DNA from: Clostridium sp. OS1-26
GTDB taxonomy: Bacteria > Bacillota > Clostridia > Clostridiales > Clostridiaceae
Length of the DNA stretch: 64,000 bases
Reading direction: 5' to 3'
Assembly: GCF_030915445.1 (NCBI RefSeq)
Contig: NZ_CP133264.1
Span: 434,001-498,000, forward strand
A model generated the notes under the pieces. That model worked only from the letters and a program-made list of their open reading frames with translations, was not told the DNA's origin and made no database searches. Shown here in pieces: positions 19,473-49,383 of the stretch (position 1 is its first letter; every line of letters begins with the position of its first letter). Made by a program: the position numbers and the translations under genes.

Positions 19473-19823
19473 ACCTGCGACCAAACCTATAAGCCGAGTT
19501 CTGTATTAGACAATCATCTATCTAGGCCCATTGTTACCAATAGGCTCAAGCGATACTACCCGGAAGCGGAGCGGACCACCCCTTTAATGCTTCTCTATTC
19601 GATCTTGCTCCAGATGGGGTTTACATAGCCGCAAAGTCGCCAATGCGCTGGTGAGCTCTTACCTCGCCTTTCCACCCTTACCGAAACAAAGTTCCGGCGG
19701 TATATCTCTGTTGCACTTTCCTTCAGGTCACCCTGACTGGGTATTACCCAGCACCCTGTCCTATGGAGCTCGGACTTTCCTCTCCTGTGTTATCACAGCA
19801 GCGATTGTCTGGCTTACTCGCAG
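19473..19823 (-). ncRNA. rnpB: RNase P RNA (catalytic RNA for tRNA 5' maturation)
   Basis: Minus-strand RNA of about 350 bases. The conserved core is plain: near the 5' end GAGGAAAGTCCGAGCTCC, then GTGCAACAGAGA, later GGTAAGGGTGGAAAGG and, at the 3' end, ACAGAACTCGGCTTATAGG. The 5' and 3' ends pair (CTGCGA.../...TCGCAGG) to form P1. A promoter lies directly upstream. Ends are set by the P1 pairing and may be off by a few bases. Confidence 0.96.
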
Positions 19824-47160: not shown

Positions 47161-48462
47161 TTAAATTAGCTCTCCTACTATAAATTCTTTTCTAACTTCA
47201 GTTAACTTAGTTCTTACAATTTTTCCTTCTACATTACAACTACTTTTTGATACTACCTTAATATAATTAGGTGTGTATCCTTCATAGGAGGATTCTTCCC
47301 CATTGTGTTTTTGTTCATACAGAACATCCATAGTCTTTCCAATTAACTTATTCATAAATTGATCTTCCAGTTTCATGTCTAATTCGATAAGCTTACTGCT
47401 TCGTTCATCTTTTATGTTTCCATTTACCTGTTCTTTCATTACAGCAGCTTTTGTGCCTTTTCTTGGGCTATATTTAAACACATGCATTTTTGAAAGCTCT
47501 ATACTCTTTAAAAATTCATATGTGGTATTAAACTCCTCTTCAGTTTCTCCTGGAAAACCAACTATTATATCTGTAGTTATAGAAACATCTTCTATATTTT
47601 TTCTTAGACCTGCAACTATATCTTTATATTCCTTTGTGGTATAGCGTCTATTCATCCTTTTAAGAGTTTCATCACAACCACTTTGTAATGATAAATGAAA
47701 GTGTGGACAGAGTTTCTTTAACTCACTAAGATTATCTATAGTTCCTTCTGTAAAGAATTGTGGGTCAATAGATCCTATTCTTATTCTTTCAATGCCTTCA
47801 ACATTATCTAGTTCTTGAAGTATTTTCACTAAGTTCCAATCTCCTTCTAGGTCTGCACCATATGAAGCTATATGTATACCCGAAAGAATTATTTCTTTAA
47901 ATCCGTGTTCTGCCAGCTCTTTAGCCTCGCTAATAACCTTCTCTGGTTCTTTGCTACACACTGCTCCTCTAGCAAATGGAATTAAGCAATAGGAGCAAAA
48001 TCTATTACAACCATCTTGGATTTTTAAAAACGCTCTCGTCTTATCTTGATATTCGCTTATATTTAAATTCTCAAAAACATTATTTTTAAGTACATCGTTA
48101 ACCTCAATTATCTTTTCTCGTTCTTCCCTTGCTCTATTCACCCAATATACTATATCACCTTTGTTTCTAGTGCCAAGCACTACATCAACACCTTCTATTT
48201 TAGATACTTCCTCTGGGGCAATCTGTGAATAACAGCCAACAACCGCTATTACTGCCTCCTCATTTTTTCTTCTTGCTCTGCTTACCATTTGTCTAGATTT
48301 TTTATCGCCAATATTTGTCACGGTACAGGTATTTATGACATATACATCGGCATACTCTTCGAAAGGTACTAATTCGTATCCTTCTTTTTTAAATTTTTCA
48401 GTCATAGCTTCAGTCTCATACTGATTGACTCTACAACCTAAAGTGGTAAAAGCGACCTTCAT
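47161..48462 (-). CDS. mtaB: tRNA t6A37 methylthiotransferase MtaB
   Basis: 433 residues from ATG (MKVAFTTLGC) with GGAGGAAGA upstream. N-terminal MTTase domain with three cysteines (LGC, NTC, GCYSQ), radical SAM core with CNRFCSYC, and C-terminal TRAM-like domain. It converts t6A37 to ms2t6A in ANN-decoding tRNAs. Placed after prmA and rsmE, the common clostridial order; the spacer holds the paired hairpin repeat described at 48477-48645. Confidence 0.96.
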   Translation of the reverse strand: MKVAFTTLGCRVNQYETEAMTEKFKKEGYELVPFEEYADVYVINTCTVTNIGDKKSRQMVSRARRKNEEAVIAVVGCYSQIAPEEVSKIEGVDVVLGTRNKGDIVYWVNRAREEREKIIEVNDVLKNNVFENLNISEYQDKTRAFLKIQDGCNRFCSYCLIPFARGAVCSKEPEKVISEAKELAEHGFKEIILSGIHIASYGADLEGDWNLVKILQELDNVEGIERIRIGSIDPQFFTEGTIDNLSELKKLCPHFHLSLQSGCDETLKRMNRRYTTKEYKDIVAGLRKNIEDVSITTDIIVGFPGETEEEFNTTYEFLKSIELSKMHVFKYSPRKGTKAAVMKEQVNGNIKDERSSKLIELDMKLEDQFMNKLIGKTMDVLYEQKHNGEESSYEGYTPNYIKVVSKSSCNVEGKIVRTKLTEVRKEFIVGELI

Positions 48463-48476
48463 TAAATTCTTCCTCC

Positions 48477-48560
48477 CTTTAGTCGGAACACTGAGCAATT
48501 AAGATTACTCGCTCCCGCTCGCTAATTGCTCGTTAAAGCCCATTTAGGGCTTTAACCTCC
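48477..48560 (-). repeat. Two-hairpin repeat unit B (adjacent to mtaB)
   Basis: 84 bases on the minus strand: GGAGG, stem 1 GTTAAAGCCC / GGGCTTTAAC with loop TAAAT, stem 2 GAGCAATTA / TAATTGCTC with a 21-base loop containing GCGA and ATCT, then AGTGTTCCGACTAAAG. The next GGAGG is the mtaB ribosome binding site. It is a tandem partner of unit A with compensated stem changes. Confidence 0.8.
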
Positions 48561-48645
48561 TTTTAGTCGGAACACTGGGTAACTTAAGATTTTCGCTTCC
48601 ACATCACAAGTTACCCGTAAAAGTTCATTTAGAACTTTTACCTCC
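48561..48645 (-). repeat. Two-hairpin repeat unit A (overlapping the rsmE 3' end)
   Basis: 85 bases: GGAGG, stem 1 GTAAAAGTTC / GAACTTTTAC with loop TAAAT, stem 2 GGGTAACTT / AAGTTACCC, then AGTGTTCCGACTAAAA. The first 21 bases encode the last residues of RsmE and its stop. Against unit B, stem 1 differs at three base pairs and stem 2 at four, each time with both partners changed. Confidence 0.8.
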
Positions 48646-49383
48646 TAAATCTCCTAGCTCATACATTATTAAGGATGTACATACAAAACCTGCAGTTTCT
48701 GTTCTAAGTATTCTAGGTCCAAGAGTAATTATATAGGCACCTAATTCTTTTAGAACATTTATCTCATCTTCTTCAAATCCACCTTCTGGTCCGATTATTA
48801 TACCGATTTTATTTATACTATTTTGAGCTATATCTCTCACAACCTTTTTTATTCCATATCCTTCCTCATTTTCATAAGGAACCAAAATTAAATCAAGTTC
48901 TTTAAGTTGTGTTAAAAGCTGTTGAAATTCTAAGGGACCATTTATTTTTGGTATTATACTTCTTTTACTTTGTTTACAAGCTTCAAGTGCAATCCTTACC
49001 CATCTATCTAGCTTTTTAAACTCTCCTATTTCATTTTTAACTACAACTCTCTCAGTTATTATAGGAGTTATTTCTTTTACTCCAAGTTCTGTAGCCTTTT
49101 GCACAATTAAATCCATTTTACTGGACTTAGGAAGTCCTTGAAATAGGTAAATCTCTACTGGACTTTCATTATTTAAATCTAATTTTTCTTTTAGGCTTAC
49201 AATAACTTCTTTTTTATCTATTTTCTCTATAATCCCCAAAAATTCTTCGCCTTCACAGTTATTTATGCTAACTTTTTCACCTTCATGAAGTCGTAAAACC
49301 TTATATATATGTTTTACATCATCACCTTCAATATATGCTCTATCGCCAGTTATGTTATTCTTTTCAACAAAGAACTTATGCAT
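48625..49383 (-). CDS. rsmE: 16S rRNA (uracil(1498)-N(3))-methyltransferase
   Basis: 252 residues. N-terminal PUA-like domain (HKFFVEKNNI, HIYKVLRL), C-terminal SPOUT domain with the trefoil-knot motifs IIGPEGGFEEDEI and LGPRILRTETAG. It methylates U1498 of 16S rRNA. ATG lies 21 bases after the prmA stop, so they are one transcript. The C-terminal GGKSSK is encoded by a repeat unit, so the original end may have been slightly different. Confidence 0.95.
   Translation of the reverse strand: MHKFFVEKNNITGDRAYIEGDDVKHIYKVLRLHEGEKVSINNCEGEEFLGIIEKIDKKEVIVSLKEKLDLNNESPVEIYLFQGLPKSSKMDLIVQKATELGVKEITPIITERVVVKNEIGEFKKLDRWVRIALEACKQSKRSIIPKINGPLEFQQLLTQLKELDLILVPYENEEGYGIKKVVRDIAQNSINKIGIIIGPEGGFEEDEINVLKELGAYIITLGPRILRTETAGFVCTSLIMYELGDLGGKSSK

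Follow-up and report, generated by a model that had tools for sequence, protein, structure and literature searches.

Two tandem double-hairpin units upstream of an mtaB-like gene in Clostridium sp. OS1-26 belong to a family of very small sequences (~80-150 nt) that are probably non-autonomous mobile DNA elements, which would insert at the GGAGG of a Shine-Dalgarno (SD) sequence, restore that SD sequence and, probably, pass through a folded single-stranded DNA form. The units lie in a window of 64,000 nt, i.e. bases 434001-498000 of the 5.88 Mb single-contig genome of this organism (G000). A sequence-only reading of the window had taken the complementary differences between their stems as strong covariation, and had suggested that the array modulates mtaB or is a REP-like element spread by a transposase.

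The tandem array upstream of mtaB

Both units exist exactly with the sequence claimed in that reading, on the minus strand (48472-48645), i.e. the strand of the rsmE-like and mtaB-like ORFs (sequence and ORF list), and the GGAGG after the second unit was rightly taken to be the mtaB SD (Table 1). Read 5' to 3', the array consists of GGAGG, 80 nt, GGAGG, 79 nt, GGAGG, 9 nt and the ATG of mtaB, where unit 1 comprises the first GGAGG plus 80 nt (48561-48640) and unit 2 the second GGAGG plus 79 nt (48477-48555). The units share one plan: a hairpin 1 of 10 bp with loop TAAAT, the first base of which is the last G of GGAGG; a hairpin 2 with a 9-bp base, an inner part and a GGAA or GGGA tip; and a tail AGTGTTCCGACTAAA(A/G). 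This tail 15-mer occurs twice in the window as compared to 0.06 expected (allowing up to 2 mismatches), and a 186-nt stretch of the minus strand folds at -66.9 kcal/mol, versus -41.7 +/- 3.8 for shuffled sequences (z -6.6). The location "between rsmE and mtaB" holds on one side only: the array is indeed 5' of mtaB, but the rsmE-like frame reaches into it: the 3' end of this frame includes the left GGAGG, takes its stop codon from hairpin 1 of unit 1 and thereby acquires the altered C-terminus GGKSSK*. In relatives with an empty site the rsmE frame runs on to a stop that overlaps the mtaB ATG.

Table 1. Features of the array and its neighbouring genes (window positions)
Feature	Position	Strand	Description and basis
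left GGAGG	48641..48645	-	original SD/target, within the rsmE 3' end; its last G opens hairpin 1 (sequence; empty sites)
unit 1 hairpin 1	48617..48641	-	GTAAAAGTTC-TAAAT-GAACTTTTAC (fold; 43-copy covariation)
unit 1 hairpin 2	48577..48616	-	9-bp base GGGTAACTT/AAGTTACCC, GGAA tip (sequence, fold, covariation)
unit 1 right end	48561..48576	-	AGTGTTCCGACTAAAA, conserved family tail
GGAGG common to unit 1 right end and unit 2 left end	48556..48560	-	sequence; model matches span 48556-48645 and 48472-48560
unit 2 hairpin 1	48532..48556	-	GTTAAAGCCC-TAAAT-GGGCTTTAAC (fold, covariation)
unit 2 hairpin 2	48493..48531	-	GAGCAATTA/TAATTGCTC, GGGA tip (sequence, fold)
unit 2 right end	48477..48492	-	AGTGTTCCGACTAAAG (sequence)
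GGAGG now acting as mtaB SD	48472..48476	-	9 nt 5' of ATG (sequence)
mtaB (tRNA methylthiotransferase-like)	47161..48462	-	ATG at 48462; ORF list starts at TTG 48498; name from sequence reading alone
rsmE-like ORF	48625..49383	-	C-terminus ...GDLGGKSSK* contributed by unit 1; name from sequence reading alone

The compensated differences are real: stem 1 differs between the units at three pairs and stem 2 at four, and 7/7 are compensated. Yet both units have perfect hairpins, so that any difference necessarily looks compensated and two units alone prove little; the wider family was therefore examined, as the actual evidence has to come from many copies. The mtaB site is also filled in four other genomes of the genus, i.e. 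G001 (where an arm has been lost), G002 (where the insertion is partly duplicated), G004 and G006. Their insertions have similarities of 0.84, 0.73, 0.90 and 0.89, respectively, to unit 2, and of 0.68, 0.63, 0.72 and 0.74 to unit 1, with the two units being 0.76 alike, and the best score of unit 1 is with another copy of G000 (2782884). Because the orthologous insertions are closer to unit 2, this unit should be the old one, common to the four species, and unit 1 a later arrival in the left GGAGG of unit 2. To judge from these similarities, the tandem is the product of two successive insertions of different subfamilies, unit 2 first and unit 1 later in Clostridium sp. OS1-26, with the seven compensated changes distinguishing those subfamilies. 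The changes did not evolve within the array, as had been supposed.

Copies, empty sites and distribution

A covariance model built from six copies of G000 was used to search genome, genus and family, and the search recovered further copies both in the genome and in other Clostridia. The tail 15-mer alone has 17 exact copies in G000, as compared to none for its reversed control. The model yielded at least 83 matches at E<=10 (a lower bound, since 150 of 1736 first-look candidates were scored) and 47 at E<=1e-6. The places of 72 of the 83 matches were fetched, read and classified, and include 46 strong copies at 43 sites. Although 44 of these 46 had been called as directly followed by an SD and start codon, the call at 482556 (unit 1 of the mtaB array) is false because another unit follows, and each of the two uncalled copies has a further unit behind it in a three-unit array, so that after correction 43/46 end at an SD plus start and 3/46 precede another unit. 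The background rate of an SD plus start is 101 in 4000 random places of the same DNA. The start codon opens a frame of at least 60 codons in 40/46 cases; behind copies 2782884, 2216230 and 5285997 the frames have only 4, 41 and 19 codons, respectively. The last of these (5285997-5286060) may mark a frameshifted gene or a sequencing error, the encoded protein beginning like what we take to be DNA polymerase IV. Strong copies run in the direction of the gene (sense) with GGAGG or a near variant at both sides, and the translations of the genes behind them are mutually unrelated. The abundance of GGAGG as such does not account for this placement, because only 21 of the 82 GGAGG on both strands of the window look like the SD of a frame of at least 60 codons. 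The SD preference may partly reflect selection, however, as insertions inside genes would be purged. Among the 26 weaker places an SD follows at 2, and most others represent a different, non-SD subfamily. Members of that subfamily (...CTTCAGATGGAG[GTTAAATGCCTAAATGGCATTTAACGGGCAG...]CTCCATCTGAAG...) are nested in larger intergenic palindromes of G000, e.g. at 2920492-2920555, 5497174-5497232 and 3975807-3975870.

For 14 of 47 sites, picked because the upstream gene is near, pieces of the downstream genes were searched in the genus and the orthologous leaders were read. With the exception of 3727909, for which the search gave no orthologue, all gave orthologues, and the 63 checks at these 13 sites comprise 53 empty and 10 filled cases, as called with a score threshold of 28 of our own choosing. 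With its score of 26, G004 at 3207489 counts as empty but has the look of a decayed remnant; it is one of three cases among the 53 where an SD was not recognised at that position. Six sites (1504733, 2277437, 5699468, 1511105, 4331633 and 547803) have five or six orthologues each, all of them empty. At clean sites the native left flank remains on the left and the native right flank on the right, with GGAGG on both sides of the element and a single GGAGG in the empty site; for instance, G003 has TTTCAACTTTAGGAGGAAGCTATGG where G000 has TTTCAACTTTAGGAGG-element-GGAGGAAGCTATGG. The rsmE/mtaB junction of G003 and G005 likewise reads ...TTTAGGAGGAAT...ATG, with the element absent: the empty site TTTAGGAGGAATA...ATG stands against the left GGAGG of the filled site in G000, and the leader GATTTAGGAGGAAT...ATG gives a clean comparison with the filled one. 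The site at 145214 shows the same pattern as mtaB, i.e. G003 and G005 are empty and the other four filled. The sequence that flanks the element on both sides at clean sites is nearly always GGAGG, and may equally be a target duplication or the end of the element.

Within the genus the element was found in 6/7 genomes, including G000; the seventh, G005, has none at E<=1e-6. There are 47 model matches in G000 as compared to 6-14 in the other bearers, where the model was built from G000 copies. At the family level, at least 27/206 genomes, in 12/46 genera, carry the element at E<=1e-8 (a lower bound, as stricter filters were used), with 20 model matches in G113, and the right end CGACTAAAA(A)GGAGG was seen in copies from nine of the 12 element-bearing genera. 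In five further genomes 30/56 right ends were read and all 30 precede an SD plus start or another unit; some copies in these genomes lack the 5' part and have their 3' end at the SD, and one copy of G003 (L135) lacks the right GGAGG. Among the matches listed, the hairpin-1 pattern was found in C. rhizosphaerae, C. oryzae, C. carboxidivorans, C. drakei, C. magnum, C. thailandense, C. lacusfryxellense and C. intestinale (some of non-SD types); of the 71 hairpin-1 stretches among them, C. rhizosphaerae accounts for 38 and C. oryzae for 17, and many of the C. oryzae ones lie away from SDs. Plasmid and phage records gave no match at E<=0.01, and viral contigs gave one exact pattern match, of a non-SD type.

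Two further observations concern individual hosts. In five genomes of another genus (G080, G083, G084, G086 and G087; loci L145, L143, L148, L144 and L146) a copy has been kept before one and the same gene, presumably encoding a hydrolase-like protein. A second hairpin family, which starts with TTCACTCTATATCTCCGTTGGTTAAAGG... and has several repeats, is found away from SDs in C. oryzae (L171, L186, L194, L203, L204 and L225) and on a viral-labelled contig (L364, 8030-8140).

Folding, arrays and composites

In a full unit, GGAGG (or something close to it) is followed by hairpin 1 with its TAAAT loop, by hairpin 2, the tip of which is mostly GNNA, by AGTG...CGACTAAAA and by GGAGG; the head is GGAG or sometimes AGAG, GGGG, GGAA or GAAG. 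In an alignment of 43 copies from many genomes 96.2% of the cells are paired, versus 87.4% after shuffling and 27-51% when slid, 12/19 pairs show double changes, and the covariation score is 0.313 versus 0.143 for shuffled alignments, none of 500 shuffles reaching it. Since this alignment had been made to fit the structure and contains related sequences, copies were also selected without regard to pairing, by a GGAG-like head and the TAAAT spacing only. Among the 192 places thus obtained 138 have at least 7/10 pairs and 109 have 10/10, the mean being 7.70 pairs as compared to 5.71 with shuffled partners. One copy set was drawn from 42 chosen sources, most of them unnested copies. Hairpin-2 statistics refer to the 88/138 copies with the boundary motif; 15 of these have four or fewer hairpin-2 pairs, either because the stem has been lost or because the motif put the boundary in the wrong place, and of the other 73, 61 have a GNNA tip according to our own finder and 12 do not. 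Judged by the covariation in these sequences, there is structural selection at the family level. The earlier claim of selection on structure thus stands for the family, although the two perfect units from which it was drawn prove little.

The character of the mismatches and the fate of single copies add to this picture. Non-Watson-Crick stem cells number 13/12, 4/9 and 14/11 for G-T/A-C in three overlapping sets (small numbers); G-T being about as frequent as A-C fits decay after insertion, and not an RNA under selection, in which G-U would be favoured. G001 and G002 have broken structures at the mtaB site. Relative to G000, a pair of G001 at 145214 is compensated in place, and this pair, together with the long retention at mtaB and at the hydrolase-like gene, could mean selection there. 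A search of Rfam at gathering score and at E<=10 found no family that reaches its cut-off at the element, with four weak matches far below theirs. Elsewhere in the window the Rfam search identified, on the minus strand, a class A RNase P RNA (19474-19820) and a purine riboswitch (2299-2399).

Units occur side by side, as arrays, and inside the hairpin-2 loop of another unit, as composites. G004 has three units in a row at a gene where G002 has one, and in G000 three tandem units with differing linkers (GGGCGAAGCC, GGTCGCAAGA) precede one gene (5457596-5457833). One composite accounts for 13/46 of the strongest G000 copies, and since these 13 share their inner junctions, the composite itself has been copied. 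In 2339220, 5603397, 2216230 and 4456643 the left end of the inner unit is joined to the right end of the outer unit; inner deletions exist among the G000 copies, 569345 has an inverted inner hairpin, and G003 and C. rhizosphaerae contain nested copies with other units. The linkers of nested and non-SD copies include 32 GNA triloops closed by C-G (a count without control), a type of loop that is unusually stable in DNA.

Mobilisation, competing explanations and known systems

We propose that insertion at the GGAGG of an SD would regenerate the SD at the right spacing, such that downstream translation would survive and the element would be tolerated, and that stop codons in hairpin 1 would terminate the upstream frame; in 121/138 copies each of the three frames meets a stop of hairpin 1 within 45 nt, a number for which shared ancestry precludes a statistic. 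To judge from the sequence, the SD after insertion is at an ordinary distance from the start codon. An effect of insertion on translation is possible. What maintains the two hairpins would be the mobilisation step, not a function in the individual mRNAs, and the probable route would be a folded single-stranded DNA that is cut and joined at GGAGG by a trans-acting enzyme. Indirect signs of such a single-stranded step, which we regard as probable, are the GNA triloops in the 32 linkers (again, without control) and the lack of a G-U excess. More tentatively, and with the odds in our own estimate somewhat against it, the SD may be both the attachment site and the end of the element, with insertions that heal themselves, a folded strand that spreads without a DDE transposase, a RAYT or a reverse transcriptase, and hairpin-in-hairpin composites that move as new units.

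The reading of the array as a regulator of mtaB can be generalised to a cis-acting regulatory RNA that controls translation or the stability of the mRNA and that, after duplication, selection would have retained in every 5' UTR concerned. The sense orientation immediately 5' of start codons, the stable fold, the covariation, the long retention at mtaB and at the hydrolase-like gene and the one in-place compensated pair at 145214 all agree with it. However, the downstream genes are unrelated, 53/63 orthologous sites are empty, the mtaB structures of G001 and G002 are broken, nested insertions alter the fold, G-U is not clearly preferred over A-C and no Rfam family reaches its cut-off, which together make a regulatory RNA very unlikely; private insertions before unrelated genes and decayed orthologous structures likewise leave a regulation of mtaB by the array unsupported. 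As genes, structure and occupancy vary freely and a clear G-U excess is lacking, mobility is a better explanation of the structure than gene regulation. The main rival to enzymatic joining of a folded single strand is copying without a dedicated transposase, in which the hairpins would stall replication and microhomology at GGAGG would let the nascent strand change template. Apart from GGAGG, no sequence was seen that both ends and the target have in common, recombinant copies (inner left, outer right) and inner deletions occur, and no enzyme was found in the parts searched. Moreover, at one locus of G002, compared with G001 and G004, the left end is at an upstream AAGAG and the right end at the SD, with ~10 nt missing relative to G001, as expected if the two ends had been joined independently, each at a GAG-type sequence, or if a deletion had followed, which would look identical. 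We nevertheless consider template switching unlikely, as five bases are little homology for some 40 accurate events and the same right end was seen in copies from nine of the 12 genera.

The suggestion of a REP-like element spread by a transposase was borne out as far as a mobile repeat is concerned, given the empty sites, but not with respect to a RAYT as mobiliser. A REP-type element moved by a RAYT (Y1) transposase, with GGAG as the equivalent of the REP head GT(A/G)G, would be in line with GGAG at the hairpin foot, with the presence of long RAYTs (E<=1e-90) in 17/27 element-bearing family genomes versus 43/179 others, an association that is confounded by phylogeny, and with G000, which has a RAYT, having the most matches of its genus (with the model's origin in G000 as above). 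The RAYT genes of G000, G005, G112, G113 and G121, however, adjoin GGGGACGGTTAACA-type palindromes (on one or both sides, 220-260 nt read), which look like the RAYTs' own cognate repeat. In addition, no copy of the element, and no TAAAT hairpin with the GGAG signature, was seen at the 15 Y1 gene loci (up to 1.5 kb on each side), where the five hairpin-like matches listed lack GGAG, the element-bearing G002 and G128 gave no Y1 match at E<=0.01, and G005 has a RAYT and no element at E<=1e-6. Given the weak genome association, the different palindrome at five loci and two bearers without Y1, a RAYT/Y1 mobiliser was not accepted and we consider it quite unlikely. An RNA-mediated, SINE-like element, with a reverse transcriptase primed at the SD, seems highly improbable: targets are on the sense strand, some copies are 5'-cut with their 3' end at the SD, and RVT_1 is present in G000, G112 and, weakly, G121, but 5' loss is also expected from plain decay because 3' loss would remove the SD, G-U is not clearly preferred, and the element-bearing G113, G128, G002 and G006 have no RVT_1 match, which leaves a reverse transcriptase unsupported as mobiliser. 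In G105 there are 27 RVT_1 matches, many with identical scores, which suggests a recent burst of one reverse-transcriptase element.

Under the preferred reading of a non-autonomous element moved as a folded strand, the enzyme would be encoded elsewhere, and the units read carry no gene. No autonomous copy was found among 17 right ends of G000 (130 nt upstream of each), among 30/56 right ends in five other genomes (21 with a left end, 9 decayed or 5'-cut), or among 95 hairpin-1 places (L137-L229). At 57 of these 95 an AAAGGAG(G/A) tail follows within 200 nt, and the other 38, inspected by eye over 150 nt, represent variant tails, arrays, locus ends or non-SD types. No intact short TnpA was found in G112, G113 or G121, with one 39-residue fragment match in G112. 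Separately, ~305-aa clostridial RAYT-like proteins lie by GGGGACGGTTAACA/TGTTAACCGTCCCC palindromes in G000 (1899295-1900200, L353), with orthologous or similar genes in G005, G112, G113 and G121, and these genes and palindromes are possibly an undescribed REP/RAYT pair of Firmicutes. An earlier study reports RAYTs that satisfy its criteria from gammaproteobacteria only (PMC2817692).

By kind the element belongs with the small palindromic, non-autonomous repeats. BOX and RUP of the pneumococcus and bcr1 of Bacillus cereus are structured repeats, some of them before genes, with signs of mobility; they have other sequences and targets, and are not known to insert exactly at SDs. Single-strand transposons of the IS200/IS605 type, which have subterminal hairpins, would likewise leave their target on the left and a fixed element end on the right, whereas the present element has no internal gene, its target and right end would both be GGAGG, and no intact short TnpA is common to the copy-rich genomes. 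REP/BIME sequences are short palindromes, located outside genes, that have a conserved tetranucleotide at the foot of a hairpin and are thought to be dispersed by an enzyme in trans (PMC2817692, PMC3686654), and the element resembles them in its variable complementary stems, its many copies and its tetranucleotide. It differs in its head (GGAG instead of GT(A/G)G), in having typically two unlike hairpins in direct order, tandem or nested, where REPs form inverted doublets, in sitting in SDs and in not adjoining the RAYT genes read. With bacterial MITEs it has in common that it is small, non-coding, non-autonomous, dispersed and flanked by a short repeat (PMC10969869), but it lacks terminal inverted repeats (with GTTAAAG/GTAAAAG at its start and CGACTAAAAGGAGG at its end), has a fixed target GGAGG and regenerates a functional target. 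Mitochondrial double-hairpin elements, GC clusters and sponge hairpin elements, too, are hairpins, some double or tandem and potentially mobile, with types that differ by complementary substitutions (PMC2800124), but they are organellar and are not known to target SDs. Exact SD targeting and regeneration and the hairpin-in-hairpin composites set the element apart, as far as the comparison goes, from REP, MITE, BOX and bcr. No description of it was found in the open-licence literature searched, including passages of PMC2817692, PMC3686654, PMC2267715, PMC2800124 and PMC10969869, and it is apparently undescribed.

Mobile DNA usually damages its landing site or hides between genes, whereas this element appears to rebuild its target, a site that many genes have before them, and a rebuilt SD would allow a gene to receive a structured 5' leader and still be expressed. 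With its 46 strong copies, G000 offers a countable system for asking how hairpin DNA spreads without an enzyme of its own and how the 5' UTRs of Clostridia acquire structure, and the copy kept before the hydrolase-like gene in five genomes is a place to test whether the element has been put to use. A warning follows as well: where a 5' UTR shows strong covariation, the cause can be selection for mobility, and a regulatory RNA need not be involved. If the tentative reading of the SD as both attachment site and element end is true, every ribosome-binding site of the host would be a docking site, and each insertion would heal itself.
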